Shown piece by piece: positions 6,994 through 63,807 of a stretch of DNA of 64,000 bases. Source of the stretch: Siphonodentalium dalli. Taxonomy: Eukaryota > Mollusca > Scaphopoda > Gadilida > Siphonodentaliidae. A program made the translations under genes and the position numbers. The notes beneath the pieces are model-generated. The model saw nothing but the letters and a program-made list of their open reading frames with translations. It ran no database searches and was not told the DNA's origin. Position 1 is the first letter of the stretch, and each line of letters begins with the position of its first letter. Where the stretch lies: the NCBI GenBank assembly GCA_032622095.1, contig CP136061.1, positions 233,924,944 to 233,988,943 of the forward strand, given 5' to 3'.

Positions 6994-7263
6994 CCCAACA
7001 GAAGGGCCCTGTGCATTGGCTTAACACATTAAAAATTATAAAATTGTTAACGAATGTAAAAAAAAATGGTAAAAAGTTTTTTTTTAGGCCAATGCAATCT
7101 CTTATATATGCGAGGCGACCTATTATATGGTCGACTCGCATATATAAGAGAATGCATTGGTACAGGGCATAACTGTAACTATCACAATGTGGTCAAGGAG
7201 CCGGTTCCAATGATATCCATATTTGTATGGTTCTATTGAGACAGACCGAAAATATTTTAGGCT
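6994..7263 (-). mobile_element. Truncated TTAA hairpin MITE (family N1) that has lost one hairpin
   Basis: Collinear with 63429-63807 but lacking both TTAA ends. The first hairpin is missing, leaving CCCTGTGCATTGGC where intact copies have the full ~69-bp palindrome. The second hairpin (7088-7160) is present with an expanded tip (TATTATA instead of TAT). The flank CTGTAACTATCACAATGTGG and the following block match the other copies. Confidence 0.7.
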
Positions 7264-7675
7264 CCGTCTTAAAACTACAGCCTATACTATATATATATAT
7301 TGAAGGAAATTAAAATTATTACAACAATATCAAGCCGTTTTTGGCCTATAATTGTCAGTTGTTGTGGTGTCGTGCATGACATTTCTATAATTGATAATTT
7401 TGTCAATGATTGGGTTGGGTGTAGCATGCCACTGTTAACTTGGGCTTGCATGTTGAAGTGAGCTACATGTATGTATATTCTGTTTTAAATAACTTGGTGG
7501 ACACTTCTGGACCACAAATGTTCTCTATCTTTGCGGAATATATGTTTGCTCTTATATTATGACAACGATCATCAATAACATATATTTGCATTGTCTCAAA
7601 AATCAAATTAGCTTGTATATCATACAATTGGCTTATTTTCTGACATTCTGTTCAAATAATTATAGGATAATCTTA

Positions 7676-7905
7676 TCAATCAATCAATCAAGTTTATTTG
7701 TACGGTACACCATATATGGTCAAATGTACACGAACATATAATAACCAGACAAAATGGACGGATTACATATGAAACAAATTTAAGAAGTAACAACAATGAT
7801 ATATGGCGGTATACGATAATATATGGTAATATACATATGATATATATGCCCACCATAAGTGGTATCAAACTAATCACCACCCTGCATGTTCCAGAGATTG
7901 TCGGT
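7676..7905 (-). mobile_element. LINE 3' end (antisense)
   Basis: Starts with (TCAA)n, the reverse complement of a TTGA-type LINE tail. It continues as the reverse complement of the 3' UTR at 13273-13497 (GTACGGTACACCATATATGG, CAAAATGGACGGATT and ATATATGCCCACCATAAGT blocks). This is a 5'-truncated copy, typical of target-primed reverse transcription. Confidence 0.65.
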
Positions 7906-8052
7906 ATTCAAGTCGCCATGCATGCACCTTCAAATGCATGATCGCCTATTGAATCATCCCGTAGACTCGTCGATAAATTGCACAAAGAATTGGGAAAGCT
8001 GCATGGACTGGCATATGGATCTCTGAAATCCACATGGTGGTGATAACCTATA

Positions 8053-8512
8053 TGTGACCCGCCATATCAAATCCAGTCGGAAGTCGGGATTTTTTTACCC
8101 TGTGCCAATGCATTCTCTTATATATGCGAGTCGACCATACGTCGTCTCGCATATATAAGAGAATGCATTGGCCTAACAATTTTTTACAATTTAATAATTT
8201 GTTCTTGTATTCTTTAACAATTTTATAATTTCACCCATACAGAGCGCCAGACAAACATGAGCAGACGACACTCTTCTAGGTGCTTCTATATATGTGTGGG
8301 GCTCCCTGCAGGTTAATGGGTGTTTTTTTTATTTTATGTCCTAAAAATTGTAAGAAACATTTATTTAAAAAACATGATAAAAACTTGTTAGGCCAATGCA
8401 TTCTCTTATATATGCGAGGCGACCTATGGTCGACTCGCATATATAAGAGAATGCATTGGCACAGGGTAAAAAAAATCCCGACTTCCGACTGGATTTGATA
8501 TGGCGGGTCACA
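8053..8512. mobile_element. TGTGACCC-ended hairpin MITE, copy 1
   Basis: Terminal inverted repeats of about 50 bp begin TGTGACCCGCCATATCAAAT and are flanked by TATA on both sides. Inside lie two ~69-bp hairpins (8104-8172 and 8392-8460) in opposite orientation, the same hairpin module found in the TTAA family. The spacer includes AACAATTTTATAATTT, as in the TTAA family, and a distinct central block (AGACAAACATGAGCAG, GTGTGGGGCTCCCTG). Superfamily not assigned; no ORF. Confidence 0.75.
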
Positions 8513-9241
8513 TATATCGTCGAACATTATTTGGACCTTTAACCATATTATTCGCAAAACTCGGTGTTAATATAAAGGGCTTATCTGGTTTGATAAGCAA
8601 TGGAGCCGACTGCGAGCATGTGGTCATCCGCTTACAATTCCATGTGATAACTGGTGTAATGTGCTCAATGGTGAATTCAATCAAATTATTCGAGTAAACA
8701 CGGCTCTGTTTTGAGTAAATACTCCGGGATGCAACCGGAATCCCATTATAGTAGGAATATCGAGTTTAGCAAATATTTAGAACAAACAGATTATAGAGTA
8801 ACCAAGATTCTTTTCGTCTCTGGGAAGGGTATCGATAACCCAGCTTAGGGTGGATTACTCCAACTTAACCCTATAAAATATGACGCGATCTGGGGAGTCT
8901 ATAGGCTCGCCTCATTACTTATACATAATTATTTCGTTATGTTTTGTGATATAAATTTACCGCGACCTATGGAACTATGAAGACCATTGCACCGGATATA
9001 ACATATTGAAGGCACAATCTAAAAAGTGTAAGCCGAAGCAAAAGTTTGAGTGGTATTTGTCGGGTTTATATCACTGGTTTCTCAATGAATATGCATGGGT
9101 TTGGAATATATGTCCACATTGAAGTACGGAATGCATTATACATTACCGTTTTAAGTATTCAGTTGTTTCTTGATTTCATTTAATGGTTCTTTTCTTAAAT
9201 ACATTGAAAGAGGAAGCGGCTCGGTAATTTGCTTAAATATA

Positions 9242-9708
9242 TGTGACCCGCCATATCAAATCCAGTCGGAAGTCGGGATTTTTTTTACCCTGTGCCAATG
9301 CATTCTCTTATATATGCGAGTCGACTATAGGTCGTCTCGCATATATATAAGAGAATGCATTGGCCTATCAATTTTTTACAATTTTAATAATTTGTTCTTG
9401 TATTCTTTAACAATTTTATAATTTCACCCATACAGAGCCCCAGACAAACATGAGCAGGGACAACACTCTTCTTTGTGCTTCTATATATGTGTGGGGCTCC
9501 CTGTAGGGTAATGGATGTTTTTTTTTATTTTATGTCCTAAAAATTGTAAGAAACATTGATTTAAAAAACATGATAAAAAATTGTTAGGCCAATGCATTTT
9601 CTTATATATGCGACGCGACCTATGGTCGACTCGCATATATAAGAGAATGCATTGGCACAGGGTAAAAACAATCCCGACTTCCGACTGGATTTGATATGGC
9701 GGGTCACA
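9242..9708. mobile_element. TGTGACCC-ended hairpin MITE, copy 2
   Basis: Same structure and nearly the same sequence as 8053-8512, again flanked by TATA on each side, with hairpins at 9294-9364 and 9588-9656. Differences include small changes at the hairpin tips. The two copies lie in the same orientation 1.2 kb apart with unrelated sequence between them. Confidence 0.75.
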
Positions 9709-9712
9709 TATA

Positions 9713-12690
9713 CCATGCGGGATCAGCTTAAGATGGGATCATTCAGCGAAATTACACATAAGAGCTAGCACACCCGAGATATGGACACCACATGTGTCAG
9801 TCTTATCAATCTCTTACATGAATATTATAAATTCGTCCAATGCAATTGACTTTATTACAGATGACACTTAATTACTATGTCATTATTTCCTTCATATATT
9901 TTGTCCGATGACTTACATGTATATTATCTTCTTTTAAGTGACACATACAACCAGGTGGTTAGGTAGTGGCCACTCGTGGATGTTTATACCATTCATGATC
10001 GCAGTTCACACTAGACGATAGGAGAGTGCTATAGGTGCATGGGGTCACACACGGACATAATGAAATGAAACTCGGACATATGATTTGAGACGATGGTCAT
10101 CTAAATGTGCCATTGGGATTGTAACATGGCCATTTCGATAAGAAATGATAATTTGTTCACGTACATATGAAGCAATCATTGTATCATATTGAGCCATGCA
10201 GAGACCGAGAAGTCGTGCTACTGGTTCAGTTACCCGAGTTTAGGGACGATGGCATAGTGGCCAATATGATTTTAACTTGCGAATAGCTGGTGGGTTGCTG
10301 CAGAGTCAAACGTATCATCATGTCCAAAGTCAATGTCATAGTGTTAACAAAACGATTCTGCCCACCAGTCGCTTCTAAGATTTAAGATACAATGAAAGTC
10401 AATTTCTATGAAACCATATATATACATACAGATTAATACAGAGGAAGCATCTCAACCATGCATTCAAGAACACAATGTACACTGAGACTGGGGACCAGGC
10501 ATGCCCACATGCTATATATATCAATGCTATATAAAAGCAGCAACAGTACAAATTAGCATTCAGGTATCTCGAGGTTGATATAGATATGGGTGGAACGATA
10601 TCTGATACCACCCCCCCCCCCCCCACACACATCTATATATCGTGATATATATGGGATAACTCGATGTAGCTGCATGCATCTATATATGTTCGCTTGAACT
10701 ATGTATGTATACTACAACCGACACCTTTATATACGAAGATGGCCACCATATATAAGCATCCGATTTATGTAACATCGACTTCTCGTTGACCAACAACTTG
10801 CATATATTTTATTATGTATTGTTAACAAGCATGCACATATAAGAAAATAAAATATGTACACACAAACACGTATCATCCATATATATCTTCTCACAAGACA
10901 TGAGTATATATATAACAGAAAGTAAACGTTTCACTTAACGAATAAAAATCGTAAACAACTTACGGCACGGCATGGCATGATATCTACAGGAGAGGACCTC
11001 AGGACCGGTATAACATCAATCACCAGACATCATCATCAACATTCTTATTATTACATGTACATTATATCTGTTAATCATCTTGTTTAAACATTTGTGTAAA
11101 TATTGTCGGGAGAGGGGCCACCTTAAGTTGTTATAACTTGTCCCCCAATCCCTTGTAAACTGAGTTACAATAAATATGTTTAAACCAAGACATGAGTAAC
11201 TATAGTGGGTTAATACGAGTAACGAAATAGCTCTTTACAATAAGTAGAATTCAGTAGGTCAAGTGAGATATTGGGGTAATCATATTATGATAGTAATGAT
11301 CATTGTCTATTTTATATCTGTCAGGAAAGACATTACGAGGAGACCAGGAAGCAACCCCTTATCCGATATCGAGTGGATGGTTGTCAAAATAACAATGAGG
11401 GGACACCACGTATGTACTATAGTAAAACCTCTTGAGACGTCATCGTCATGCCTTCGTGTGCATGGCTAACCCACAATGTATGACCTACACTGCAATGAGT
11501 GGAAAGCCACACCAGAAAACAGGCGAACGGTTCATAAGAGAACATTATAAGTAAATCTTAATTCTCGATCCGCATGAGGACATGGTCAGAGATCTGTATG
11601 GTATCTCTGACATGGTCCTAAACCACATAGGTTGCCAGCGGCACACGAGGGAAGAGGAGGCGAACCTCGCGCAAGAGGACGGAGGGTAAAACGCCGAGGA
11701 GGCTGGGAGTTGAACGCCACACACGAGACCTAAGAGAGGAAACAACTCACATAAGTCTACACATTTGATGCCGAATCCGATGTAACGTACTTACTGATGT
11801 ATTTACTATTTTTCTGTTTATATTCATGCAATAAAAACTAGACCAAGAGCTGAAAGCAAACACACGAGGGCAACCGCACTCTGAACAGGCGAAGTCTGCT
11901 GATGTAAAACAGTTACACCGGACAAGTATATAGGAGAAAACTTTGCTAGACACATGAACCTTGAATTTGACTACCAATTGGTGCATATCGGACCAGCTTC
12001 ACCTTCGCTAATATAGACGTATAATTCGCTATGTGTCTTGCACACTGAGCCACCCTAGCTCCTCAAGGTTTCGGCACGAAATAATCTCCGTTTGTGCTTT
12101 CTTGAATGCTATTAAAATTTCCCACCGCCTCATTATCTATATGGCCTAACTATTATTCATATCGTATTAGTATTGGTTTACCACATTGCATATTCAACAC
12201 ACCAACTTTGTTGATATAAAGTTATCATCAATTGGACTCAGGCGACCTTTACCTGACCCGGTTATAATACTCCAGGTATCACCGAATCCCCACTTTAGCT
12301 TCTATTGACCCTCACGTGAGGTCAATTTTGAAATTTATTCCGTTCGTTCTTGCCTCGCCAGGTGTCGACATGCTAATTGAAGACATGTTGAGAGCGTAAG
12401 CGATTAGTTCTGATAGCGAATTGTTATGCTGGCCGTAAGCCGATTGTACCTTTGACCACTGGGATATAACCTTCCTTCTAAACAAAGGAAACTTATCGAT
12501 AGCTTTCGTTGTTTCGATGGCCGATGTAATAAATTTCCCAGGGTCTGGTCGAAAATTTTGATAGACCAGTCATTGTTTCTTTGCTACAACATGTTATTAT
12601 ATTGGGAAAGAACATGAAAGAATAGGGGTTCGACACATTAAGTCGTCCATCGATGGCAACGATTGTTAGATTCTCGATAATTCGTGGAGT
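9713..12690. other. Mostly featureless stretch
   Basis: No gene, inverted repeat or recognisable transposon end was found, apart from a C run (about 10610-10625) next to CACACAC, scattered ATATAT runs, and a LINE 3'-UTR-like segment (11090-11182). The somewhat GC-richer 11540-11760 segment has short ORFs on the minus strand but none with a recognisable motif. Confidence 0.45.
11090..11182 (+). repeat. LINE 3'-UTR-like repeat
   Basis: TTAAGTTGTTATAACTTGTC and CCAATC, followed by GTTACAATAAATATGTTT, resemble a LINE 3' UTR with polyadenylation signal. The same core, TAAGTTGTTATAACTTGT, recurs at about 6821-6838, again followed by CCAATC. Only two copies are visible here, so the assignment is tentative. 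Confidence 0.4.
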
Positions 12691-12696
12691 AGGTCG

Positions 12697-13272
12697 TTGT
12701 CACAATGTCAACAGTTAGTCACATCCATGTCCCCAAGTCACGACATTAATGACTTCTTCGATAACTCAATAAAGAAACAAATATTTAATGATAATATTAG
12801 CAGCAAACTTCCCAAAAATAGCAATCGACGTGATCCCCCAAGGAACAAACTTAGAACATACAGAACATTCAAAACTATGACTTTTTGGAAGAATATCTCA
12901 ACGTCATTTCCGTCCCAAAACAGCGTGAATCGCTGACAAAATTAAGCAAAACCTTGGGCATCTAGCGCGGACGAAGAGGACCGAATTTGAGAAACATGCA
13001 ATGAAATCGACAACGAAGAACACTTTCATATTTACTGTACTTCTCTGTCAGACGAGCGCGCCCTATTTTACGAGAACATATCACCCAATTTATTAAACAT
13101 CCACAACGAGAGACTATTTAAACAAATAATGACCAATACAGACTCAAAAACTATTTGGGCTCTGGCACACGTTGTCCACTGTGGAATGAAAAAGAAAAGG
13201 GTTTGGCAACCGAGTGACGAACTCTTAAATCGAGTACAACTAAAAAGAAGACCATGCCAGTCTCAATTCTGA
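12697..13272 (+). pseudogene. LINE ORF2 C-terminal fragment, broken
   Basis: The conceptual translation contains the sequence order typical of the C-terminus of LINE reverse-transcriptase proteins: NKLRTYRTFK near 12850-12880, then SLTKLS, then RGRRGPNLRNMQ (about 12967-13000). After a frame change come CNEIDNEEHFHIYC and the tail ending QLKRRPCQSQF at the stop (13270-13272). The C-x(n)-NEEHF-x(n)-C arrangement is the C-terminal cysteine/histidine knuckle of many non-LTR elements. An in-frame stop (about 12964) and one frameshift (about 12990-13003) separate the pieces, and the polymerase domain itself is absent. It is a 5'-truncated dead copy, as its position before a LINE 3' UTR also indicates. 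The clade (CR1/L2/Jockey-like) cannot be fixed by eye. Confidence 0.7.
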
Positions 13273-13497
13273 ATGGCATATTTGCCAATCATATACATAT
13301 ATTATCACAACTTATGATGGGCATATATATCATATGTATATTACCATATATCATCGTATATACCGCCAATTACCATTGTTGTTACTTCTTAACTTTGTTT
13401 CATGCAATCCGTCCATTTTGTCTTATTATTCTGTGTTGATGTACATTTGATCATATATGGTGTGCCGTACAAATAAACATGATTGACTGATTATATA
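13273..13497 (+). mobile_element. LINE 3' UTR and tail
   Basis: Follows the ORF2 fragment directly and ends GTACAAATAAACATGATTGA with a short TTGA-like tail. It is the sense counterpart of 7676-7905. Related tails appear at 15597-15665 (antisense) and 63900-63945 (sense). Confidence 0.65.
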
Positions 13498-13508
13498 ATT
13501 GCGGATTT

Positions 13509-13720
13509 GTGACCCCGCAAAGGGTAGATCGTCTTGATTCGTATATATATAGCTGCTGGGGCAAGTTGTCGGTTACTTTCCGGGTTCGGTGGTATCTACG
13601 TGCAGTGGAGAGATTTCTGGATGAAATTAACTTTCTGGGAGGTCTTTCCTCCATCTGTAAAACGGACAACGTCATGGTATGGCCTATAATGACTAAACGG
13701 CGATAAACAACATTAAACCG
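13509..13720 (+). repeat. SINE-like repeat, family B
   Basis: GGGTTCGGTGGTATCTACGT, GCAGTGGAG, CTTTCCTCC-CTGTAAAACGGACAACGTCATG matches the order of blocks at about 40260-40360 (GGTCGGCAGTTTCTACGG, GCAGTGGAG, CTTTCTCCCACC, TTGACAACGCCGTGATATG). Short frames in it are not considered genes. Confidence 0.5.
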
Positions 13721-13794
13721 AACCATTGGGGTAATAACGATCTATTATCGTCTTAATCCTTTGATAACGGGAGCTGTGCTGGTACAACACTACA

Positions 13795-14000
13795 TATCAT
13801 GTGCCAGTGCACATACCATAGGGAGCCTCGTATATATAAGGGAATGCACTGGCTTACAAGGTCAAGATACATATTGTTTGGCCAATATATTCTCTTATAT
13901 ATGCGAGGCTCCCTATGGGAGACTTGCATGTGTAAGATTATGCATTGCCACAGGGTTTTCGCAAATTTTTCATGAAGCTCCAGTCATGGAAGTACACTAT
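13795..14000 (-). mobile_element. Diverged TTAA hairpin MITE (family N3), reversed
   Basis: Contains two decayed hairpins (about 13803-13854 and 13880-13952) with the TCTTATATATGCGAGG core. These are followed by CAGGGTTTTCGCAAA and GAAGCTCCAGTCATG, the reverse of the left end seen at 22992 and 60728. The tip of the hairpin has changed on both arms (GGAGC/GCTCC type). TTAA ends are not preserved. Confidence 0.55.
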
Positions 14001-14111
14001 ATATGTTAGTACTTCCGCACAGGCGCTATTGTTTCTCATACAAAACATAAACAAAATCAAATGAGGATAACTTTTCAATACTTTACGGTAATACATTTAC
14101 AAACTATGGTT

Positions 14112-15236
14112 TGATGATGATGGTGACGATGACAATTGCGCTGCTGATGGTGATGGTAATGATGATGATGATGCTAATGGTGATGATGTTGATGGTGGTG
14201 ATGTTCATGTTGAAGTTGTTGATGATGATGATGATGATGATAATGATGATGATGCTTGATGACAATGACGCTGATGATAAGTATTATGCTGATGGTGACG
14301 ATCATGTTGCTGAGGATAATGATGATGATGCTAGTTAGTGGTGATGATGTTTGTTCGACGATGTTCATGTTGATGGTGATGTTGTTGATGATAACGATGT
14401 CTGATGACAATGATTATGATGCTGATGCTGATGATGATGGTGATGATGAGATGCTGAGGATTATGATGATGCTAATGATGATGTTGATGATGGTGATGTT
14501 CGTGTTGATGATGTTCATGATGATGATGCTAATTATAATGATGATGATGCTTGATGACGATGACGATGACAATGACGCTGATGATAATTATGATGATGAT
14601 GGTGGTAATGATGTTTGTTCGACGATGTTCATGTTGATGGTGATGTTGTTGATGATAACGATGTCTGATGACAATGATTATGATTATGATGCTGATGGTG
14701 ATGATGATGGTGCTGATGGTGGTGATGGTGAGATGCTGAGGATTAGATGATGCTAATGATGATGTTGATGATGGTGATGTTCATGTCGATGATGTTCATG
14801 ATGATGATGCTAATGATAATGATGATAATGCTTGATGACGATGACGATGACAATGATGCTGATGATAATTATGATGATGATGGTGGTAATGGTGTTTGTT
14901 CGATGATGTTCATGTTGATGATGAAGTTGTTGATGATAACGATGTCTGATGACAATGATTATGATGGTGATGATGATGGTGCTGATGATGATGGTGGTGA
15001 TGATGATGATGCTGAGGATTATATGATGCTAATGATGATGTTGATGATGGTCATGTTCATGTTGATGATGTTCATGATGATGTTTGATGAGGATGACAAT
15101 GAAGCTGTTGTTGATGATGGTGATGATGTTGTTAATAGTGATTTATGATGCTGCTGTGGCTGTTGATGATTGATTTTTACGATGATGATTGATTTTTATG
15201 ATGATGATGATGATGATGACGACGACGACGATGATG
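14112..15236. repeat. GAT/ATG trinucleotide array with higher-order repeats
   Basis: About 1.1 kb of (GAT)n-like sequence with interspersed variants. A longer segment (GTTTGTTCGA, GATGTTCATGTTGATG, GTTGTTGATGATAACGATGT, CTGATGACAATGATTATGAT) occurs near 14347, 14610 and 14893, so the array has a higher-order period of about 265-285 bp. Open frames across it (poly-D/M/L) are by-products of the triplet repeat and are not called genes. Confidence 0.9.
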
Positions 15237-15318
15237 TTGTTGGCTAACAATTAAGGGCCTTGTACACAATAAACTTTGTCGAGCCTGCGCCACCGAGGGG
15301 CCCTTCTTTGGACGAACC

Positions 15319-19444: not shown

Positions 19445-19925
19445 TTAACCCTTTCAGTGCCAGGGGCCGATCTCATCGGCCCTAATTTACGGTCTGTAAA
19501 ATCGGCCCTAAAAAAAAATAAAAAATTACATTATAATTTTTTTTTTTTTTTGGGGTTGAATTTTTTTGGGTATGCTTAAGCATGCTATAGCGAATTTATA
19601 AACAAACTGGATAAAACCTTAGGGGCATGTTATAACTCAAAACTATCACCAAGTATTCATAGTAATAATTTTGATGCCCATGAAAAACGTAAGATTCCCT
19701 GGTACTAAACCTACAAAATAAGTCTGTTAAAGAATATAAGAAAAAATTATTAAAATTGTAAACAAAAATAAAAAAAATAATAACAAATGATGAAAAATTG
19801 TTAGGCCAATGCATTCTCTTATATATGCGAGGCGAACTATGTTCGACTCGCATATATAAGAGAATGCATTGGCACAGGGCATATGGGTTGATACAAAAAA
19901 TCAGACCTGGCACTGAAAGGGTTAA
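19445..19925 (+). mobile_element. TTAA hairpin MITE with CCCTTTCAGTGCCAGG ends (family N4)
   Basis: Perfect termini TTAACCCTTTCAGTGCCAGG at 19445 and its reverse complement ending at 19925, i.e. a TTAA-duplicating, piggyBac-like element. It carries one copy of the shared hairpin (19805-19873). There the tip reads GCGAAC-TAT-GTTCGA instead of GCGACC-TAT-GGTCGA: both arms changed together. The rest of the interior differs from family N1. Confidence 0.8.
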
Positions 19926-22991: not shown

Positions 22992-23213
22992 TTAACCCTT
23001 TCATTACTGGAGCGTCCTGAATGTTTGCGAAAACCCTATGCCAAAAAGACCTCGCATATATAATAGCATTGGCCTAACAATATTCACTTCGACCTTGTAA
23101 ACCATGGCATTCTCTTATATATGCGAGACTATACCTATATAGGAGACTCGCGTATACGATAATGCACATGATCTTTAATGCTGCACCATCGCAGCTCCCG
23201 TCATGAAAGGGTA
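22992..23213 (+). mobile_element. TTAA hairpin MITE, family N3
   Basis: Left end TTAACCCTTTCATTACTGGA with GCGTCCTGAAT. Right end GCAGCTCCCGTCATGAAAGG followed by GTAA (a decayed TTAA). Inside are two degraded hairpins (about 23036-23075 and 23103-23166) carrying TCTTATATATGCGAGAC. Same family as 60728-60981. Confidence 0.65.
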
Positions 23214-23573
23214 ACGTAATTTTCTATTGTTGAAATTTATACGCTTTCTGAGAGTGGCGATTCTAACCAGTAACCAGCAAACATCACGTCATGCACGGGG
23301 TTCGTTGGTCTTACCGAGTCATCAAGGAGGGTATCACCCCCCCCCCCTCCCCCTGAATCCTGAATACGAGTTAATTTTGGGGGGTGAATCCTGAATACGA
23401 GTTAATTTTGGGGGGTGAATCCTGAATACATGTTAAGAAATAATATGCGATAAATGACATACAAATTGACTGTTTTAATATCAGACAGATACAAGCAGAA
23501 GTTACATATAGACACATAATGATGCCGGTCGCGTTATGAGGCCGTTATGATACCATTAATGATACTTTATGAT

Positions 23574-25701: not shown

Positions 25702-26102
25702 TTAACCCTTTACCCAACAAACCGGCCAAAACCGGCCAAATAAAGCTTCAACAGCCTAAAATATCTTCGGTCTGTCTCAATAGAACCATACAAATATGGG
25801 TATCATTGGAACCGGCTCCTTGACCACATTGTGATAGTTACAGTTATGCCCTGTGCCAATGCATTCTCTTATATATGCGAGTCGACCAAAGGTCGCCTCG
25901 CATATATAAGAGAATGCATTGGCCTAAAAAAAAATCTTTTTTTAACACTTTTTACCATTTTTTCTTACATTCTTTAACAATTTTATAATTTGTAATGTGT
26001 TAAGCCAATGCATTCTTTTATATATGCGAGGCGACCTATGGTCGACTCGCATATATAAGAGAATGCATTGGCACAGGGCCCTTCTGTTGGGTAAAGGGTT
26101 AA
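25702..26102 (+). mobile_element. TTAA hairpin MITE family N1, full length
   Basis: Perfect ends TTAACCCTTTACCCAACA and reverse complement (TTAA 25702-25705 and 26099-26102). It contains ACCGGCCAAAACCGGCC, a ~120-bp unique block, hairpin 1 (25855-25923), an A/T-rich spacer, then hairpin 2 (26004-26072) in the opposite orientation, giving about 401 bp. piggyBac-like by TTAA target and CCC start. Its right TTAA doubles as the left TTAA of the next element. Confidence 0.85.
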
Positions 26103-33085: not shown

Positions 33086-34070
33086 TAGGATTGATCCTAA
33101 GATGCATCTGACGAGGATATGAACGATGAATGTCCTGTTCATGCATGTTGTCGCCCACATACTATTGATGGATGCGTTGCAGACGGTCAGTTGCATTGGG
33201 TCACAGATATGACAGCAATAAAGGACTATCATCATCCAATTACATAGTTGAAATGGTCCAGAATTTCGAATGCTCGGCATCTCTACCATCTGTCGTCTGT
33301 CCAACATCTATTGTGTTCTGAAGAATCAGTAAATGTTTGCATTCTGAGCACACTACAATAGGAACTCATCAACAGGTGGGTATGACCAAACGATGCATGC
33401 CGCCACACGATATCTCCCTGGATCTCGCGAGAATATAATAGCAGACGACAGCCTGTTGATTCAAATGCACTTCAGTGTCACGTGCGCGGCCATGTTGAAC
33501 AATAATTGAATTAAAATCATTTTTGTTCGAAAGATCGACGATTATCCTATTGTTGTGGTTTGAAAAAATACGACAAAAGGAAATTTGAGATAATAATAAA
33601 AATTGTGGATAAATTGGAGATCGGATGGCTGAGAATGATATAAAGAAAGCGCATGATTGGTTTTGTGGTGGTGGTTATTGTCCGAGGACCTTCTGCCCAA
33701 CCTATTGTGATATCGCGCCAAATACGAGAGACCACTGACACCACTCAGCATGATTTTGGAGAGGTCGGGGTCAAGTCTTATCCAGCTGAATTAAAATTAA
33801 CCCATTGACGAAAAGAACTTATTCGGCCATTTGATAAAAAAAATCGGTTTTGTTCTGATCATGACATTCGAAAATGTATATGAATATTAGTTAGTGTCCG
33901 AAAGCTTCTAAATTTACCGTTAGTTTCAAGTCTCACTCAAAGAAGACTAAACAAAAGACAAAAAATAAAACAAAACAAAGCAAAATCACAACAATACAAA
34001 AACAAAACATGTCTCGCATAGTCTTGAATGGAGTTGAGCATGTAATCGATAAACATTTTTGCTGAAGGCC
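33086..34070. other. No recognisable feature
   Basis: A cysteine-containing open stretch at 33101-33247 (+) has no start codon of its own and no recognised family. Confidence 0.35.
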
Positions 34071-34520
34071 TACATGTAATATATAGGGGTATCTGGTGAC
34101 TACATGTAATATATAGGGGTATCTGGTGACTACATGTAATATATAGGGGTATCTGGTGACTACATGTAATATATAGGGGTATCTGGTGACTACATGTAAT
34201 ATATAGGGGTATCTGGTGACTACATGTAATATATAGGGGTATCTGGTGACTACATGTAATATATAGGGGTATCTGGTGACTACATGTAATATATAGGGGT
34301 ATCTGGTGACTACATGTAATATATAGGGGTATCTGGTGACTACATGTAATATATAGGGGTATCTGGTGACTACATGTAATATATAGGGGTATCTGGTGAC
34401 TACATGTAATATATAGGGGTATCTGGTGACTACATGTAATATATAGGGGTATCTGATGACTACATGTAATATATAGGGGTATCTGGTGACTACATGTAAT
34501 ATATAGGGGTATCTGGTGAC
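34071..34520. repeat. 30-bp minisatellite, 15 near-identical copies
   Basis: Fifteen exact-length units of TACATGTAATATATAGGGGT plus ATCTGGTGAC. Only one substitution is visible (GGTGAC to GATGAC in the unit at 34431-34460). Because 30 is divisible by three and the unit has no stop in one minus-strand frame, a 206-codon frame with the decapeptide VTRYPYILHV repeated runs through it. I regard that frame as a by-product. Confidence 0.95.
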
Positions 34521-34959
34521 TTCATATATTTGCACCACCGAGAGAGGGAACACCGGCGTTCAGTTTGTTAGGTCCACGTACAATGCAAGCCGTCCAGCAC
34601 CGTCGAAACCAGTTCTCATCACAATGAATTTGTATTGCTATTGCAGGTTCGTATATCTGGATGAGTACGATTTCCAATCGCTTAGCGGATATCGGTGGCT
34701 TCTATGTGCATGTGGTGATGTACCAGTGCAACTATGAGAACTGGCATTCATCCACTCTTTAATCTGACAGAGCCATGATGTGACCACATATGTACATGTA
34801 TAGGCTCTATGCTGCTGAAAACGAAGGGAAACCCCGCACCATAACCAACCAGCACGATGACTCGAAACCAGCAACTGTGTTTAATGTAAACGTTTCCTTC
34901 ATTTCATATCACCATAATAATTGCTGTAATCCATATTTTCACACCTCTCACATTACGCG

Positions 34960-38634: not shown

Positions 38635-39024
38635 TTAACCCTTTACCCAACAAACCGGCCAAATAAAGCTTCAACAGCCTAAAATATCTTGGGTCTGTCT
38701 CAATAAAACCATACAAATATGGATATCATTGGAACCGGCTCAATGAACACATTGTGATGGTTATAGTTATGCCCTGTGCCAATGCATTCTCTTATATATG
38801 CGAGTCGACCATAGGTCGCCTCGCATATATAAGAGAATGCATTGGCCTAAAAAAAATCTTTTTTTAACACTTTTTACCATTTTTTCTTACATTCTTTAAC
38901 AATTTTATAATTTTTAATGTGTTAAGCCAATGCATTCTCTTATATATGCGAGGCGACCTATGGTCGACTCGCATATATAAGAGAATGCATTGGCACAGGG
39001 CCGTTCTGTTGGGTAAAGGGTTAA
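38635..39024 (+). mobile_element. TTAA hairpin MITE family N1, full length
   Basis: TTAACCCTTTACCCAACA to TGTTGGGTAAAGGGTTAA. It has one ACCGGCC unit rather than two. Hairpins at 38778-38846 and 38926-38994. Otherwise nearly identical to 25702-26102. Confidence 0.85.
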
Positions 39025-53325: not shown

Positions 53326-53539
53326 AATGCCGTTAGGAAGATACACGTATAAAGAATATAGAAAAACGGACTCCGAGATATCTTTAACAACCACAATAAA
53401 GTGTGTGCGTTAAATTGTTAATCTATTACTGACATGGGAGTTTGTTTCGTCCCAAGATGCGAAAAAACAAAAACAGCTTGAACATCATTCATATCACAGC
53501 CTTCGCGAAAAAGCATCCATCAGCTTTACACTGAAACGA

Positions 53540-55429: not shown

Positions 55430-56133
55430 TAAAGCCGCTTTCACACATGTCCGTTTCTCCGATGCGTTTCCTTACGTTTCTAATATTTTAACCCTTTACC
55501 CAACAAACCGGCCAAAACCGGCCAAATAAAGCTTCAACAGCCTAAAATATCTTCGGTCTGTCTCAATAGAACCATACAAATATGGATATCATTGGAACCG
55601 GCTCCTTGACCACATTGTGATAGTTACAGTTATGCCCTGTGCCAATGCATTCTCTTATATATGCGAGTCGACCATAGGTCGCCTCGCATATATAAGAGAA
55701 TGCATTGGCCTAAAAAAAAATTTGTTTTAACACTTTTTACCATTTTTTCTTACATTCTTTAACAATTTTATAATTTTTAATGTGTTAAGCCAATGCATTC
55801 TCTTATATATGCGAGGCGACCTATGGTCGACTCGCATATATAAGAGAATGCATTGGCACAGGGCCCTTCTGTTGGGTAAAGGGTTAACGCATCCGGAAAA
55901 CGCATCGGTCAAAACAGTGATAATATCACTGGGTCTTTCACACGTATGTGCGTTTGCCGGATGCGTTTCTTTTTTTCATGTCTCGGACTTGAAATGCTGC
56001 GTTTCTAAAAAAGCATACACAAGCATGTGTGGCTAGCTTCACTATTTCGACCGATGCGTTTTCCAGATGCGTTAAAATATTAGAAACGCAAGGAAACGCA
56101 TCCGAGAAACGGACATGTGTGAAAGCGGCTTTA
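55430..56133. mobile_element. AAGCCGCTTTCACAC-ended MITE interrupted by a TTAA MITE
   Basis: Ends AAAGCCGCTTTCACACATGT and reverse complement, bounded by TA (55430-55431 and 56132-56133). Inverted arms contain CCGATGCGTTTCC and CGTTTCTAATATTTTAACGC. A family N1 element sits in the TTAA of the left arm. The intact right arm keeps the same TTAA at 56072-56075. Without the insert it is about 305 bp. Confidence 0.75.
55488..55887 (+). mobile_element. TTAA hairpin MITE family N1, nested
   Basis: TTAACCCTTTACCCAACA to TGTTGGGTAAAGGGTTAA, hairpins at 55641-55709 and 55789-55857. Nearly identical to 25702-26102. Confidence 0.85.
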
Positions 56134-56667
56134 GTTTGAATCGTGGATCAAGCCGATGATTTTTTTCCAGTTCTGGGCATTTTAGATTAGAAAAATTATG
56201 TTTCTTGATTTCTGTGTGGTAAATAAAAACTTCGGTTAGAGGTGCTTTGAACCAGACTTGGTACCTACTAAATTAGCTCAAAATATAGACTGCGTTAGAA
56301 TCTGGTTTGGCCTATTATTTTGTCAGATTTATGGGTCTTTGGACTTTTTGATGGGTGTTTGTGATTGTGTTACATAGGGACCTCAGTAATTTTGTTTGTG
56401 TGCCGTTATCACAGAAAAAAGGAGCAGCAACTCAGCAATTATTTGAAACTCTCATATCATTTCATATCAAACAACAAGACCAATAATCTCAAAATCAATG
56501 CACTCTCAATCCATCCGATACCATCGACCTGTGTTCGAACCCAGTGAGTTAATGTTGTACATATGTAATAAGGCACTTACAAACATACGAGTTCCTTTAT
56601 TTTTTCCAGAAAGAATGTATCATTATGAGTCCCTTGTAATAAGGGTAGCATATTTCAACCACCGTTC
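56134..56667. other. No recognisable feature
   Basis: Short frames only; nothing recognised. Confidence 0.35.
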
Positions 56668-57090
56668 AGGGACGCGGCGATATGATCTTTCTCTGTGGGT
56701 GTCGACATTGGAATTTCTACACTGCACCCCCCAGAGAAACTCCATTTTCATCCCTTCAGTTGGTTTGGAAGTTTCCAACATGTCCGTTAAACTTGCCAAC
56801 TGTTATAAATTGTCAACCTAATTTTCCCATGCATGAGTGAAAATTTTCAGTCTAAAAACAAGAAATTTCACACTAAAAATTGGTTTGATTTTTGGTCTGA
56901 AATTTCCAACTATAAATAGTGAAATTTCCAACTATAAATGTTGTGTCGGGCACGGGATTTCCAACTGTTAAAACTTTGGGCAAAGTTGGGGGTGATAACC
57001 AAACCTGTTGATAATTAAGGATGTGGTTTTTCCACCACCGTTCATGGACTTGTCGATATCCCCCCCCCTCTCTCTCTCTCTCTCTCTCTG
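56668..57090. mobile_element. hAT-like CAGGGACG fragment and CT microsatellite
   Basis: CAGGGACGCGGCGATA left end followed by AATTTCCAAC motifs as in the 23.6-kb element. No right terminus. CACCGTT precedes both CAGGGACGCGG (56668) and CATGGACTTG (57048). A (CT)n run is at about 57066-57089. Confidence 0.45.
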
Positions 57091-57610
57091 CATGGGGCTG
57101 TTCATGTCACCATTATATTGATTGAACAAATTGGATACAGGACCATGCACTTGAAGCATTTGTAAAGTTGAAGGTTTACGACTCACACAGAAAGGGTTAA
57201 CGTGATTGACTATCCGTAAATCATGGTGTCATTCCTCCGATCCTGGGTCGCACGTGTTTCTGAGAGCAGGGGAGACTTCTGACATGGCCAATCAAGAAAC
57301 GTACCACGCTAAGTCGTACATAATATTATGTCCTTGATTAACTAGCTAATGTGGCCCATTGCTAACAGCTGTGATCTGTTTTGTGTGAAGTAAAATGCCA
57401 CTCAAGCAGACTCAAGCACATGATCACATCTGGGCGATGCACATTCCTGTGCATATCTGCACAGCAGGACGAATTTGTGGAATTGAATCCCTAATTCCTA
57501 TAATCGACATTTGCTTCTTCAAATTCACAATACTAAGTATTTAATCCCCACTTTCGGGTGGAGGAAGCACCAAAACTCAAGGGGGCACAGTTTTCCCAAT
57601 GTAAATTATA
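57091..57610. other. No recognisable feature
   Basis: Nothing recognised. Confidence 0.35.
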
Positions 57611-59140
57611 CCTTTGTACAATAACACATCGATATTAAGAGGGCTGGGGCCCCAGTATGCACAGGGGTGGCGCCAGTGGGGGCACGGGGGGGGGGGGGGG
57701 GGGGGCTACAGCCCCCTTGTCGGGGAGCTCTAGCCCCCTCGTCGGGGAGGACTTGTCGGGGATTTTCTATATGTAAGTCGGTTGTGTGTATAATATGAAG
57801 TAATCATGTACAGACTGTCAGTGTGGGAAAGTGTCAGAGAGAGAACATACAGCGGAATATATCCCACACAAAATATTCATATTCCCATTAAATCCGGGGG
57901 TATTTCCCTGTATTGTTACACCATCAGCGTTTTAGTGGTAATGAAAATCTATTGAAACATGTGTGCTTCATCATTGCTGGCTACTCTGGCATTCGTCACA
58001 ATGGCCATATTGGTCTATAGAACCATTGAGTACCTACAGTATGGCCACATGTTAGCTATATCCCCGACAGTGAAACACCATGCTGGCACTTGCAACTAAT
58101 GAAATTAGAAATTAGAACTGACACAGAAGACAAGTGGCCTCCCTGGAATATAGGAGTTTTCACAATAATTTAAAAGAAATTTAATTATCATATCACTGAC
58201 TTGTCTCAGGTCAAATATTAGTGTGGCGAAGCCTTAATTCAAGTTTAATTGACACCACCATAATATATGTGTTATTATTTACATATGTGATAATGTTCAT
58301 CAATCATAAGCAACTGCAGATCTATTAGAATTCTCCAGGCTCCAGCTAAGAGACTATGATTACTTCAATATGGTTTTGTACCTTTGTACAATAACACATC
58401 GATATTAAGAGGGCTGGGGCCCCAGTATGCACAGGGGTGGCGCCAGTGGGGGCACGGGGGGGGGGGGCTACAGCCCCCTTGTCGGGGAGCTCTAGCCCCC
58501 TCGTCGGGGAGGACTTGTCGGGGATTTTCTATATGTAAGTCGGTTGTGTGTATAATATGAAGTAATCATGTACAGACTGTCAGTGTGGGAAAGTGTCAGA
58601 GAGAGAACATACAGCGGAATATATCCCACACAAAATATTCATATTCCCATTAAATCCGGGGGTATTTCCCTGTATTGTTACACCATCAGCGTTTTAGTGG
58701 TAATGAAAATCTATTGAAACATGTGTGCTTTATCATTGCTGGCTACTCTGGCATTCGTCACAATGGCCATATTGGTCTATAGAACCATTGAGTACCTACA
58801 GTATGGCCACATGTTAGCTATATCCCCGACAGTGAAACACCATGCTGGCACTTGCAACTAATGAAATTAGAAATTAGAACTGACACAGAAGACAAGTGGC
58901 CTCCCTGGAATATAGGAATTTTCACAATAATTTAAAAGAAATTTAATTATCATATCACTGACTTGTCTCAGGTCAAATATTAGTGTGGCGAAGCCTTAAT
59001 TCAAGTTTAATTGACACCACCATAATATATGTGTTATTATTTACATATGTGATAATGTTCATCAATCATAAGCAACTGCAGATATATTAGAATTCTCCAG
59101 GCTCCAGCTAAGAGACTATGATTACTTCAATATGGTTTTG
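57611..59140 (+). repeat. Near-identical tandem duplication, two copies of ~765 bp
   Basis: 57611-58380 and 58381-59140 are nearly identical. I see three base substitutions and a difference of eight in the length of a G run (about 57686-57705 against 58456-58467). Each copy begins CCTTTGTACAATAACACATC. The boundaries do not coincide with transposon ends. Confidence 0.9.
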
Positions 59141-59251
59141 TTCATTGGTTCGCCACACACACTATGTGCGCTCATTTCACATACCAACAGGCAATATGGT
59201 GTAATTTAGTGTACCCCCCCCCCTGTCGGGGATTTTCTGGTGCCACCCCTG
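57662..59251. mobile_element. hAT-like element with a duplicated left end
   Basis: Left end CAGGGGTGGCGCCAG, right end CTGGTGCCACCCCTG, flanked by the 8-bp duplication AGTATGCA (57654-57661 and 59252-59259). A second left end, with its own AGTATGCA and 50 bp of host flank, lies at 58432 because of the tandem duplication. The original element would be about 820 bp. No transposase. Confidence 0.8.
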
Positions 59252-59259
59252 AGTATGCA

Positions 59260-60329
59260 CCGGCCTTATACCTTCCTCCTCTACTTCCTTGCTGTTGATT
59301 TTGCCCCCGCTGGCTTTTGACGCAATAATATTATTTGTGCGTTTTCTCTGCCAGAACATAATGGCAGTAAAGAAAGGAACCCATTCATGCGACGTTAACA
59401 CTCTCCGAATTTGAATTCCAAAAATAGGCAGTTTTACGACACATAATTCCAATAAATTAGATTTGTCGTGGTGTTAAACGGTAGTCATGTATGTGGCTTG
59501 ACTAAATATTTGAATCAACTCTCCAAACCCTGGAGGTATATAAATATACCCAACCAACCACAACACAACTACTTAAAGTACTCGTAAAGGCGGGATATGC
59601 ATGTTTCAAATTTTCTCACGGATATTCGAGCGAGATCCCTGCCGAGACAGCCTGTTGCATTTTAGAGCCAAAAGTTATTTATATATCCAAAGGAATTGAT
59701 GATTTTAAGGCTATAATTTTCCAAATTTATTTATCATACTAACATCTATAAACTGTGATAAGATGAATAGATAACCTCAAATGAGACACCTGTTTGTCTC
59801 GACCCCATATAATGGGATGCACGAAGGCGAAACGATACCGTATAAATTTACAATTTCAATTTGCGGCTGTCAGTGAGACCTTCATTGTTCGATTCGTTTG
59901 GCTGTCGTTGTGATATCATGTTCTGAAAGATCACTTTGACTTCGATTGTATACGTTTAAAAGAAAAAAAGAGACACTTTGTATTTTATACAACGTTATAG
60001 CAGGTTTAAGGCTATTTATTATATGTTATCTATGTATGGTGTAGACCCTTACACCCAAGGCCAAGGAATGCGGTTATTTGGGGTCATATTGGGTGTCTCT
60101 ATTCGAACTAATATCCCTCGTTTGAGAACTGGCGTATATGCTATAGGGCAACCAATTACAAGCCACCACTTTGTCGAAATATCTCGACTGAAAATAAAAT
60201 AAAGGAACCCACAAAACTAGTCAACAAATAGTCAACGGTATTATGATGGTCTACACATGGTCGTGGTGATCTTTTTAATACGGCTCCCAAACAGATTGTT
60301 ACTATAACTCAACGTCAAAAGTGCTATTC
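59260..60329. other. No recognisable feature
   Basis: A 91-codon minus-strand frame (59452-59177) starts in unique sequence and runs into the hAT end. No family recognised and not called. Confidence 0.35.
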
Positions 60330-61047
60330 CTTCCAACCCAGTCAGAGACATGGTGACATTTTCAATATATATATAGTTGGAAATTTCATGCAAGACACAT
60401 TATTTGGAAATTTCAGACAAAATATAGGAGTTATCTGAGTTATAGATTTTCCATGCAGCCAGTATTTATTTGTTGTTGTTAGGCTAACACTCTGACACTT
60501 GCCTACTTGTCAAATTGAATTGAAATGACCATGAATTGGAATTTTTCAAACCATAGGGGATATTATGTTGGAAACTTGAGATACTATCTGGGTAATTTCA
60601 ACCCAAATGGGGTGCTCTACTGCATACGACACCCCTGTCGAGAACTATAGGCCGTCTACCAATAATTGTACGCTCCGACGTCCGATGGGTTGGTGTGCAA
60701 ACGGAATTTCCAGAATTTCGTTCTTGTTTAACCCTTTGATGACTGGAGCGTCCTGAATTTTTACGAAAACCCTGTGCCAATGCATTCTCTTATAGGTCGC
60801 CTGGCATATATAAGAGAATGCTTTGGCCTAACAATATTTACCTTCATCTTGTAAGCCATGCATGCAGTGCATTCTCTTATATATGCGAGGTGACCTATGG
60901 TCGACTCGCAGAGACAAGATATTCCAGTGGCGCAGGGTCTTTAATGCTGCGCCAGCGCAGCTCCCGTCACGAAAGGGTTAAAAGGGTGCAGATGTAAATT
61001 CCAAGCTGAGACCTTCCCAGAGGATACCTTCTATAGCCACGTCCCTG
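60330..61047. mobile_element. Decayed hAT-like element of the CAGGGACGTGGC group
   Basis: Left end CAGAGACATGGTGAC, right end ATAGCCACGTCCCTG, interior with GGAAATTTC motifs. Interrupted by a TTAA MITE at 60728-60981. No clean target duplication. Confidence 0.45.
60728..60981 (+). mobile_element. TTAA hairpin MITE family N3, nested
   Basis: TTAACCCTTTGATGACTGGA to CCGTCACGAAAGGGTTAA. Two partly decayed hairpins (60776-60829, which lacks part of one arm, and 60869-60925). Right part TCTTTAATGCTGCGCCAGCG as at 5570. Confidence 0.75.
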
Positions 61048-61209
61048 ATCTGACTGTCAGACGGGATTGTATAGTGACTCTACATGTGTTCAAAGCTGCA
61101 CGGTCTAGTTCCTTGAAACATACCCGATGTTCGCATATACAAACTTCATACGTGGAAACTGAAAGAAAATTTCGCATTGCATCATGTTTATTAAATGGGA
61201 CTTCCTTAT

Positions 61210-61310
61210 AATTTAGCCGTAGCCGATGTGGGTTAGTTGTGCATGGATACCATCATCGCAGTCTGTGGTAAACGAGGAGGTCCCGGGATCGATTCCCCAC
61301 ATATGCGAAA
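61210..61310 (+). repeat. tRNA-like sequence, probably a SINE head
   Basis: GATGTGGGTTAGTTGTGCAT resembles an A-box region, and GGGATCGATTCCCCAC contains a near-consensus B box (GGTTCGANTCC). The acceptor and T stems do not pair properly, so I do not call a functional tRNA. Confidence 0.4.
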
Positions 61311-62603
61311 ACAGGGACCGATATCCAAGCATCCGAGGAACACCTCGGTGTGGGTGAATTGGTCATAGTCGCATTTTATCGTTCAAAAAGACCCAGGATC
61401 TCTCAAATAAAAGACACATGTACATGATCTCCCAAATGTGCAAAAAGTCATGCACTCAGCATCTCGAACTCTCATCAAAAACGCGATTTTAGAGTATTCG
61501 TCTGCTAATAATTAAAAGTGTTTGTTTTTTATCGGAGTGGACAATCTTGACTGCACCGCAGTTCCGTACTTTTTGCACATTTGGGATATCATGTGTGTCT
61601 TTTTGCACGAACCACGCAACAATGACCAAATTTAGCCTAAATGTGCCATTCCGATCGATCATAACACGGTCGTATCAATAAGAAATAATATTTTGTTTTA
61701 CGCGTGCATATATGAAATCACACGGGCCAGTGATTCCACTCCAAAATGGAGGTAGTAAGTAATCAAAAAGAAGACATAAAACTCGTCTTAAATTGTGTGT
61801 TAAATAGTAGAATTGATTGAGCAAAAAGCCTTGTCTCGCATGCAAAGTATCGTTTTGTATTTGCATTCACTGTATATCTCTATAACATTCCATATAAATT
61901 ACCCACTCCACTCCCTAATGGGAAATGAGAAAATACCTCGAAGGGCATATATCCTTTTTATCGTTCATCGAAATGCATGATTCTATTCACCCCATGTTTA
62001 CCACCCATATCGACAAAATGGACCCCTTTGATGTTGGGTCCCCAAGCGACCCTTTAATGGATTCAGGTCGTCAATTATAAAACATGTACTGGTCAACTTA
62101 GATTATCGGTCATGATTTCGAATAATCCCATTTGTATCGCCATCCCACGAAGATACGACATACCTGCCCCAAAGCCCCACTCAAAATTGGAATTTACTTA
62201 ACGGTCCGAAACAATAATAAACAAACGGAAAATGAATAACATTGTCAGACATAATTCTTCGTCTTGTTTGTCAAACCACAGACGAGTCGTCTTCAATGAG
62301 AATGTTTGTGGTCAGACTGGACATAGATTAAAGAAACAGCCGGGGACTAAACAAAATATGTAGGAGGTCAATGATCTGCAAGCTCAGTTATCACGTGACC
62401 TTAAATAACCTCCAAGCAATTGGTTTTTGTTTTCGCTTGTAATCTCTAATGCAACTTGACGACTTGTGATGTATTTCCCATGCGGATTGTCTCGCTACAT
62501 CAAACGTATCACTGGCAGAGCATAAATACAAACAAAACTGATGGGAGTTTGTTAATGCACCTGGGGCTAGCAGGGGCGACCTTTCATCAAGCTGGTTGTT
62601 CGC
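61311..62603. other. No recognisable feature
   Basis: CTCCCAAATGTGCAAAAAGT near 61428-61448 has an inverted partner, ACTTTTTGCACATTTGGGA, at 61567-61586, a small foldback of unknown kind. Otherwise nothing is recognised. Confidence 0.4.
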
Positions 62604-63105
62604 TTAAAGGTACGGTTGGCCTTGGCGGTGGGTATCCTGTGAAGATATTTCCACCCGTCAAAAACCGCCACAAACAGAAAGAACATCAAAATGTAGACAG
62701 ACTTTATCCGTATACAAATAAGAAATATCGCATAAACAGTATGTTATTGTCATATTTTTTACGATTGTTATGTAAACAAAAGCATAGAAAGTTACTTTTC
62801 TGGTGTTTGTTTATATTATGATGGTAAACATAAAGAGCGTTCCTTGTTGGTGAATTCCTGATATGGCACTAATAAAGAGCGCTTATGCCATTTTTGTGTG
62901 ATTAGCCAGTAGCATTGTGCTGTCTTCTGTAACACAATCAGGCTCTTGCTTAGGTAAAATATAGTAGGTCTTTATGATAACATGCTGTTTACGCGATAGT
63001 CATGGTATATATGAACGAAACTGTATGGATTTTAATGTTTTCCTGTTTACGGTGATTGGAACAAATATGAATATTTTCGACAACTAAGGCCTCACGTGCC
63101 TTTAA
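62604..63105 (-). mobile_element. TTAA-flanked AGGYACG element, copy 3, full length
   Basis: TTAA-AGGTACGGTTGGCC to GGCCTCACGTGCCT-TTAA, 502 bp, reverse orientation of copy 2 and very similar to it. TAAAGAGCG motifs at 62831 and 62873. The frame through its left half is shared with copy 2 and is not considered a gene. Confidence 0.8.
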
Positions 63106-63428
63106 ACTGCAAGTACAGAAGCTGTATATGAACACGAACATCAGAATTTCCATCTCTGCCCTGTGTTCCCCCTTATATTTGAATATCTATACAGTGTGGT
63201 GTTGTATTAAATTGTATGATGCTGAGGGCACTGAATGAATGGTCTGAGACCAAAAGTACTATATAGGACGTATCACTGCCCGTATGATCAACCATGGAAT
63301 ATCCTTACATTTCAGCTATAGGCACTTGTCTACCACGGACTTGCCAAAAGGGGAATATGGCAAAATAGTGACCAACTGCTGGACAGAATACGTAACCAGA
63401 CGAATGTATATCCACAATAAGATCCATC

Positions 63429-63807
63429 TTAACCCTTTACCCAACAGAAGGGCCCTGTGCCAATGCATTCTCTTATATATGCGAGTCGACCATAGGTCGC
63501 CTCGCATATATAAGAGAATGCATTGGCTTAACACATTAAAAATTATAAAATTGTTAAAGAATGTAAGAAAAAATGGTAAAAAGTGTTAAAAAAAGATTAT
63601 TTTTAGGCCAATGCATTCTCTTATATATGCGAGGCGACCTATGGTCGACTCGCATATATAAGAGAATGCATTGGCACAGGGCTAACTGTAACTATCACAA
63701 TGTGGTCAAGGAGCCGGTTCCAATGATATCCATATTTGTATGGTTCTATTGAGACAGACCGAAGATATTTTAGGCTGGTTTTGGCCGGTTTGTTGGGTAA
63801 AGGGTTA
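63429..63807 (-). mobile_element. TTAA hairpin MITE family N1, full length, reversed
   Basis: TTAACCCTTTACCCAACAGA to TGTTGGGTAAAGGGTTAA. Hairpins at 63459-63527 and 63606-63674, one pair of GGTTTTGGCCGG units. Nearly identical in reverse complement to 25702-26102. Confidence 0.85.

Follow-up and report, generated by a model that had tools for sequence, protein, structure and literature searches.

Short elements with different ends carry the same near-perfect hairpin in a window of 64,000 nucleotides (the whole stretch of DNA analysed), which is part of the 2.23-Gb genome of Siphonodentalium dalli (9 contigs). How did one hairpin come to lie between such different ends, and does it have a role there? 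We found that tiny elements with unrelated ends, which as a group are very abundant, have the 69-base hairpin as their common core. All 14 near-identical hairpins of the original prediction were recovered where it had placed them, except that the last one starts at 63607 instead of 63606, and diverged forms do exist at 13.8, 23.0, and 60.8 kb as reported. The hairpin length is 69 bases in twelve of the 14, the exceptions being those at 7088 (74 bases) and 9294 (71 bases). The typical fold is a stem of 27 bp and then 5 bp, interrupted by a T.C mismatch and closed by a 3-nt loop; for instance, the hairpin at 55641 folds in this way as DNA with −35.4 kcal/mol (z −15.6). A chance origin of the matches is ruled out, because letter-shuffled controls gave a single match in total at 7 or fewer mismatches (window and 28 loci), and the arm had 156,189 + 156,038 matches genome-wide against 0 for the reversed pattern. 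In addition, the 21-letter arm had no match in the viral contigs or prokaryote genomes searched.

The core occurs in four element types, A, B, C, and D. The elements of the window are as follows:

25702..26102, minus strand: B element with TTAACCCTTTACCCAACA ends and two hairpins (25855-25923 and 26004-26072)
38635..39024, minus strand: B element with hairpins 38778-38846 and 38926-38994
55488..55887, minus strand: B element with hairpins 55641-55709 and 55789-55857
63429..63808, plus strand: B element with hairpins 63459-63527 and 63607-63675
6994..7250 (approximate), plus strand: truncated B element that lacks the outer TTAA ends and, by deletion, the first hairpin, with hairpin 7088-7161
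8051..8514, plus strand: C element with TA + TGTGACCCGCC ends and hairpins 8104-8172 and 8392-8460
9240..9710, plus strand: C element with hairpins 9294-9364 and 9588-9656
19445..19925, minus strand: D element with TTAACCCTTTCAGTGCCAGG ends and a single hairpin (19805-19873)
13753..13999 (right boundary approximate), plus strand: old, diverged A element with an eroded right end, hairpin 13881-13949, and a broken hairpin at about 13827
22992..23214, minus strand: A element with a TTAACCCTTTCATTACTGG end and a diverged hairpin arm at 23101
60728..60981, minus strand: A element with modern CGACC/GGTCG-type tips, hairpin 60863-60931, and a broken hairpin near 60801

The A elements are old (about 10% diverged), and the B elements are young (about 1.5% from their consensus). 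The ends of A, B, and D are piggyBac-like (TTAACCCTTT), and those of C (TGTGACCCGCC) are preceded by TA. At least four sets of ends had been described before; they do differ, but TTAACCCTTTCATTACTGGA is to be assigned to the old A family, the very family that holds the "diverged forms". That the host elements differ in their ends was borne out, since past the first ten letters the matches between families covered just 8-17 letters (z 3.0-4.0; one to three representatives per family, 60 shuffles). The reported pair of hairpins in opposite orientation was seen in A, B, and C, but not in D, which has a single hairpin in the copies read. TTAA precedes B ends in 34 of 36 cases and D ends in 21 of 24 (counts in which overlapping loci recur), both TTAAs are visible around the four B elements with complete ends and the D element of the window, and the A elements read by eye also have TTAA flanks. 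Meanwhile, of 12 distinct C ends, 11 have TA before TGTGACC; in L058, AA takes its place.

MITEs of the piggyBac type have a TTAA target and CCY...RGG ends. The A, B, and D elements are like them in being TTAA-flanked, non-coding, and roughly 250-480 bp long in the copies read, with CCCTTT...AAAGGG termini (that is, CCY...RGG and not RR...YY), but they differ in carrying a 69-bp hairpin pair inside A and B and one hairpin inside D. RR...YY ends are those of Kolobok, the other TTAA superfamily named in the text available (PMC9587614). There are many open piggyBac transposase frames in the genome. Among 24 autonomous piggyBac copies, covered mainly on the 5′ side, the ends of L060/L064 (TTAACACGTTGAGTGCCGG) resemble D and those of L068/L084 (TTAACTCTTTACTCCCC) resemble B, in neither case with identical sequence, and no autonomous element moving A, B, C, or D was identified. 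The C family resembles TA-target MITEs of the Tc1/mariner-like kind in its 48-bp inverted ends with TA before both (a putative target duplication). However, its core is that of the TTAA elements, and no transposase was tied to its ends.

The hairpin had been predicted to be a module shared by MITE families with unrelated termini. It is common to all of them, but the shared module is wider than the hairpin alone: what recurs is CCTGT-hairpin-spacer-(inverted hairpin)-ACAGG, set between several unrelated end sets. Beyond the hairpin, reading by eye showed that CCTGT on the outside and a TTA/TAG-type inner flank are common, and that B, C, and D additionally share parts of an AT-rich spacer. Genome-wide, there were 312,227 exact 20-letter arms, 138,158 complete hairpins, 91,612 B ends, 18,296 C ends, and 13,508 D left ends. 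For the first 100 outer arms on contig C1, exact ends were of type B in 30 cases and of type C in 16, which leaves 54 with neither. Comparison of the lists by eye showed an exact D left end for 25 of these 54, and one tandem array accounts for 10 of the 25. Nineteen of the 54, several of which duplicate each other, were read by eye: 8 were D, 3 were B with mutated ends, 1 was A, 1 was an A-like hybrid (L038), 1 was a truncated C with a mutated end, 2 were D-left without the TTAA end, 1 was a C core without C ends (L050), and 2 had ends of no known set (L045/L047). The last three loci fit less well with the explanation favored below.

A separately mobile hairpin, as had been suggested, is not what the counts show. 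Outer arms with CCTGT number 145,837, or 46.7% of the exact arms where the ceiling is 50%, so that nearly every exact arm able to have this flank has one, and thus the hairpin does not seem to be mobile by itself. In addition, 114 of 114 matches of nine end or interior queries (about 276 kb; matches not independent) had an arm within 500 bp, and within the initial 5.83 Mb of C1 each of the 25 exact D left ends runs straight into a hairpin. We also rejected the idea that the core is itself an element inserting at TTAA, since it directly adjoins TTAA at just 340 places genome-wide, against 145,837 exact outer arms. Furthermore, the stretches examined gave no sign of the core multiplying alone and contained no host ends without the core.

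As for capture of the hairpin by several element types, the same core does lie between different ends, although what is shared is larger than the hairpin. Because the C flank is TA and not TTAA, at least one exchange of ends, beyond gradual drift alone, is likely; drift cannot easily make TA-preceded C ends from TTAA ends. If a single ancestral element had given rise to all hosts by stepwise change of its ends, TTAACCCTTT and the core common to A, B, and D would be expected, and the weak likeness between the D and A ends (10 letters, z 3.9) is consistent with it. However, C has TA-flanked ends that show no relationship over their 48 bp, a near-identical core contrasts with ends that cannot be aligned, and there were no C-to-TTAA end intermediates among the loci read. 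We regard such drift as very improbable.

The core probably arose in A, and the B, C, and D ends were gained later. Despite the divergence of about 10% in A, its consensus differs from the B/C/D arms in only one pair (hairpin 1) and one base (hairpin 2). In addition, the window element at 60.7 kb combines A ends with the modern tip, and in L038 an A end goes together with the modern tip and with the AT-rich spacer. The insertion step itself was not seen, since empty forms of C and D were absent from the stretches examined.

Thus, we propose an explanation to which, as a whole, we give a probability of about 0.5. A single lineage of MITEs, which are short non-autonomous DNA transposons, would have the hairpins as its core, and this core may have originated within the old A elements, where the stem tip changed. 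The core would then have been put between the B, D, and C ends through nested insertion or template switching at the palindrome, and each composite would have been amplified in trans, at least two different kinds of transposase being involved. More tentatively, the hairpin DNA might have been retained for aiding amplification, for example by extruding and drawing the ends together, or else by binding a factor common to these elements. It seems conserved in the copying lineage, yet after insertion it appears to decay about like its surroundings. That the core is a portable cis-acting amplification module, a DNA structure enhancing the copying of whichever short transposon takes it up, working across at least two unrelated transposases and repeatedly creating high-copy families (more than 138,000 complete hairpins), we consider rather unlikely. 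MITEs are usually defined by their ends. What we see is MITE biology with an unusual exchangeable core: one internal core has outlasted several end sets and is present in very many copies in a genome of 2.2 Gb. Should amplification be enhanced by the hairpin itself, this would be directly relevant to the long-standing problem of why certain MITE families spread explosively.

Shared variants, that is, variants seen in at least two of 17 B copies, occupied 1 of 138 hairpin columns against 13 of 226 other columns (p = 0.021; the test is small, and 6 of the 13 outside columns belong to the AT-rich spacer, whose runs are quick to mutate). In 12 B copies with the cut-off set at 3, none of the 8 shared-variant columns was in the hairpins. 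Both tests leave out the divergent B copy of L027, and one divergence estimate was left out as biased, many loci having been chosen through exact arms. The avoidance of the hairpin by shared B variants weakly suggests that the copying lineage retained the hairpin as a piece of DNA that aids amplification. As for covariation, the 1188 cells of 36 modern-tip hairpins contained 2 double changes against 0.28 expected under independence, and 1 of the 2 was paired, whereas 13 old-tip hairpins had 9 (6.6 expected), 7 of them paired; beyond the fixed paired tip differences between A and B/C/D, covariation is weak. One arm of a palindrome can repair the other, and therefore preserved pairing is no proof of selection.

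The core could also be a neutral passenger that was present in a few founders and copied along, the hairpin having no role; the matching of its arms would then come from template switching within the palindrome and recent common descent. In keeping with this, 13 A copies decay roughly alike throughout (0.06-0.17 per site in arms and tips, 0.07 in the spacer, and 0.12-0.15 in the ends), and private mutations in B did not differ significantly between hairpin and elsewhere (13/2202 vs 35/3470, p = 0.10). Furthermore, single copies have unpaired changes at the hairpin tip, and D manages with one hairpin. However, the avoidance of the hairpin by shared variants speaks against a passenger, as do the four end sets carrying the core, with none of the 114 query matches lacking a nearby arm. 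We regard the passenger as a possible but doubtful account. A founder effect would likewise yield elements that all bear the core.

It is unlikely, in our opinion, that the hairpin is a palindromic sub-terminal site for the piggyBac cysteine-rich domain and thus part of the transposase recognition sequence. The ends of piggyBac and piggyBat do have internal palindromic repeats to which this domain binds as a dimer (PMC7351741, PMC11707139), but the sites described in the text available are about 14-19 bp against 69 here. Four of nine autonomous piggyBac ends (L062, L076, L082, and L084) have an inverted repeat beyond all 12 shuffles, starting at bp 17-21 (the terminus of L076 is uncertain), and in the left ends of B and D, as in the A ends, the hairpin starts at bp ~31-52. 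However, the other five autonomous ends have no such repeat, and an arm within 7 mismatches was found in 0 of 24 autonomous 5′ flanks (one at 8). In addition, other short palindromes already lie at bp ~20-38 of the A left and D right ends (by eye), the B right end has its hairpin ~154 bp in, and the TA-flanked C bears the same hairpin.

Among the papers listed for MITEs, cores, molluscs, and piggyBac, titles and the first parts of abstracts contained no description of this element, and five sequence strings matched none of the papers searched. Bacterial TIMEs (PMC4133298) and KolobokP composites (PMC9587614) are likewise transposons of exchangeable or repeated parts, but their ends and architecture are different, and the available text of these papers mentions no comparable hairpin core (the word "hairpin" is absent from PMC9587614).

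Transcripts of the hairpin might also give miRNA-like or other small RNAs, which seems very improbable to us. The hairpin at 55641 folds as RNA with −54.3 kcal/mol (z −14.3), and its 69 nt are close to the size of a pre-miRNA; human Made1, about 80 bp long, is a similar case. Made1, a palindromic MITE of hairpin size, gives miR-548 (PMC1784062) and is thus a precedent. However, the loop here is just 3 nt, the window has no Rfam match at gathering score (and no tRNA), and a survey of molluscs reports, in the text available, no evidence for a dedicated endogenous siRNA pathway (PMC12479628). Moreover, Made1 is a whole transposon, whereas the present hairpin lies inside larger elements.

All 14 hairpins of the original prediction were present in the window where it had placed them, except that the last one starts at 63607 and not at 63606. 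Folding showed that a typical hairpin of 69 bases consists of 27 pairs, one T.C mismatch, five pairs and a 3-base loop. Both tip types (the old tip of family A and the CGACC/GGTCG-type modern tip of families B, C and D) have the mismatch in their consensus, and thus the hairpin has a direction. In two-hairpin elements, the oppositely oriented HP1 and HP2 are reverse complements of one another. In the whole genome (2,226,750,531 bases in 9 contigs of 190-301 Mb, with CCCTAA telomere-like repeats opening one of four contig starts inspected), the exact 20-letter arm occurred 156,189 + 156,038 times, and the reversed control 0 times. Complete hairpins with exact inner arms numbered 69,217 + 68,941 = 138,158 genome-wide, each counted once because this pattern is not self-complementary. 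In addition, 24 sampled stretches (L013-L036; 16 set places and 8 random; 192 kb) held 87 arms at <=7 mismatches, which were clustered, only 11 of the 24 having any.

The flank CCTGT lies on the outer side of the hairpin: 145,837 exact outer arms were found against 312,227 arms in the whole genome, or 46.7%, where the ceiling is 50% since only one of a hairpin's two arms is the outer one, the other being inner. Thus, the proposal that the hairpin itself is mobile found no support. The inner flank is TTA/CTAA-like. Taken with the outer flank, this shows that the repeating unit is CCTGT-HP1-spacer-HP2-ACAGG.

MITE families sharing the hairpin core
Family A (old): ends TTAACCCTTTCATGACTGGAG-like; 27-bp spacer; tip mostly CTCCC/GGGAG; copies ~10% diverged (n = 13)
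Family B (young): ends TTAACCCTTTACCCAACA; ~400 bp; 1.5% from consensus (17 copies); 91,612 exact ends
Family C: ends TGTGACCCGCC; TA before 11 of 12 distinct ends; 18,296 exact ends
Family D: ends TTAACCCTTT[CG]AGTGCCAGG; the copies read carry a single hairpin; 13,508 exact left ends

Past the first ten end letters, representatives of different families gave only 8-17-letter matches (z 3.0-4.0). One family A copy (L026) had three hairpins with a 96-bp period. Within another A element (L024, 2379-2516), six consecutive hairpin half-arms followed a 22-23-bp period, so the arm is able to expand as a small tandem array. On one contig (G000:C1, ~820000-926000), an 11.2-kb unit with B-type and D-type ends and hairpins stood in about ten tandem copies.

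All 114 matches to nine queries (seven ends and two interior pieces) in the window and 28 loci (276 kb) lay within 500 bp of an arm, these matches being not independent, as the first letters are identical in both B ends. The first 100 outer arms on contig C1 included 30 beside an exact B end, 16 beside an exact C end and 54 beside neither; comparing lists by eye, we found an exact D left end at 25 of these 54, ten of the 25 belonging to one tandem array. Nineteen of the 54 loci, several duplicating one another, were fetched and read by eye: eight were D, three B with mutated ends, one A, one an A-like hybrid, one a truncated C, one a C core without C ends (L050), two D-left without TTAA, and two had unknown ends. 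Seen from the ends, the same stretch held 58 exact B ends and 26 exact C ends, of which 30 and 16, respectively, adjoined an exact outer arm; beside the remaining ends, the arms may be mutated or deleted.

The window element at 60.7 kb combined modern-type tips with A ends and the A spacer, and another locus (L038) joined an A end and a modern tip to the AT-rich spacer typical of B, C and D. Furthermore, parts of this spacer were common to B, C and D by eye. These three observations suggest that A came first, A with a modern tip next, and B, C and D, which have new ends, last. The predicted capture by several element types was partly right; one core is found in A-D. The letters preceding CCCTGT were TA in most copies of C and D and at two further loci (L045 and L047). 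Core insertion at TA would fit these flanks; however, B (GGC, TATGC) and A have no TA there, and thus it is kept as a lead. C and the latter two loci also had in common a second small block, GAGCAGACGACACT ... GGCTCCCTG:
Window 8232-8320 and near 9452: second small block
L045 and L047: second small block
L032, 3598-3695: similar block, alone between TTAA sites

As to piggyBac, there were 128 PF13843 matches in the genome (from the 116 scored of 649 first-look candidates), and many of these had open frames spanning 500-720 codons. The arm at <=7 mismatches was found in none of 24 autonomous piggyBac 5' flanks, one flank having it at 8 mismatches. Other inverted repeats exceeded shuffles in four of nine autonomous ends, starting from bp 17-21; the piggyBac and piggyBat structure papers point to this end region for palindromes (PMC7351741, PMC11707139). 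Near bp 20-38, the left end of A and the right end of D were also seen by eye to have short palindromes of their own. The 69-bp hairpin is therefore probably not the piggyBac end palindrome.

Seventeen B copies were compared (12 taken from the window or the sampled stretches, 5 picked by exact ends; the divergent copy of L027 and the terminal 18 letters excluded). A variant common to two or more copies was seen in 1/138 hairpin columns versus 13/226 columns elsewhere (Fisher P = 0.021), six of these 13 falling in the spacer with its A and T runs. Private changes were 13/2202 versus 35/3470 (P = 0.10). Among the 12 copies alone, none of eight shared columns at a cut-off of three lay inside hairpins, and changes, shared and private pooled, were 7/1197 in arms versus 73/2925 elsewhere (P = 1.6e-5). 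In family A, hairpin divergence was similar to that of the rest of the element. Overall, the B data weakly suggest that the hairpin is under constraint in the copying lineage.

Some elements carried inserts. In two C elements (L058, G000:C1:4495900-4497800; L059, G000:C1:4549500-4551400), the hairpin was split, its arms lying ~1.3 kb apart on either side of an insert. This insert is an inverted-repeat block whose open frame matches Bcl-2 of Pfam (E = 1.4e-10 and 1.7e-13, respectively). Here a MITE appears to have carried a cell-death regulator gene. A 2.4-kb B element (L057, G000:C1:6269500-6272150, ~405-2405) had a ~2 kb insert at TTAA in its spacer, whose ends AGG...TCC are Kolobok-like by eye under the RR...YY rule. 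The window also held other repeats:
34070-34525: 15.2 copies of a 30-bp unit in near-perfect tandem (99% match), lying within a minus-strand open frame of 206 codons
48066-48631: tandem repeat of 38/73 bp, rich in G+C, with the 38-bp unit in 15.2 copies
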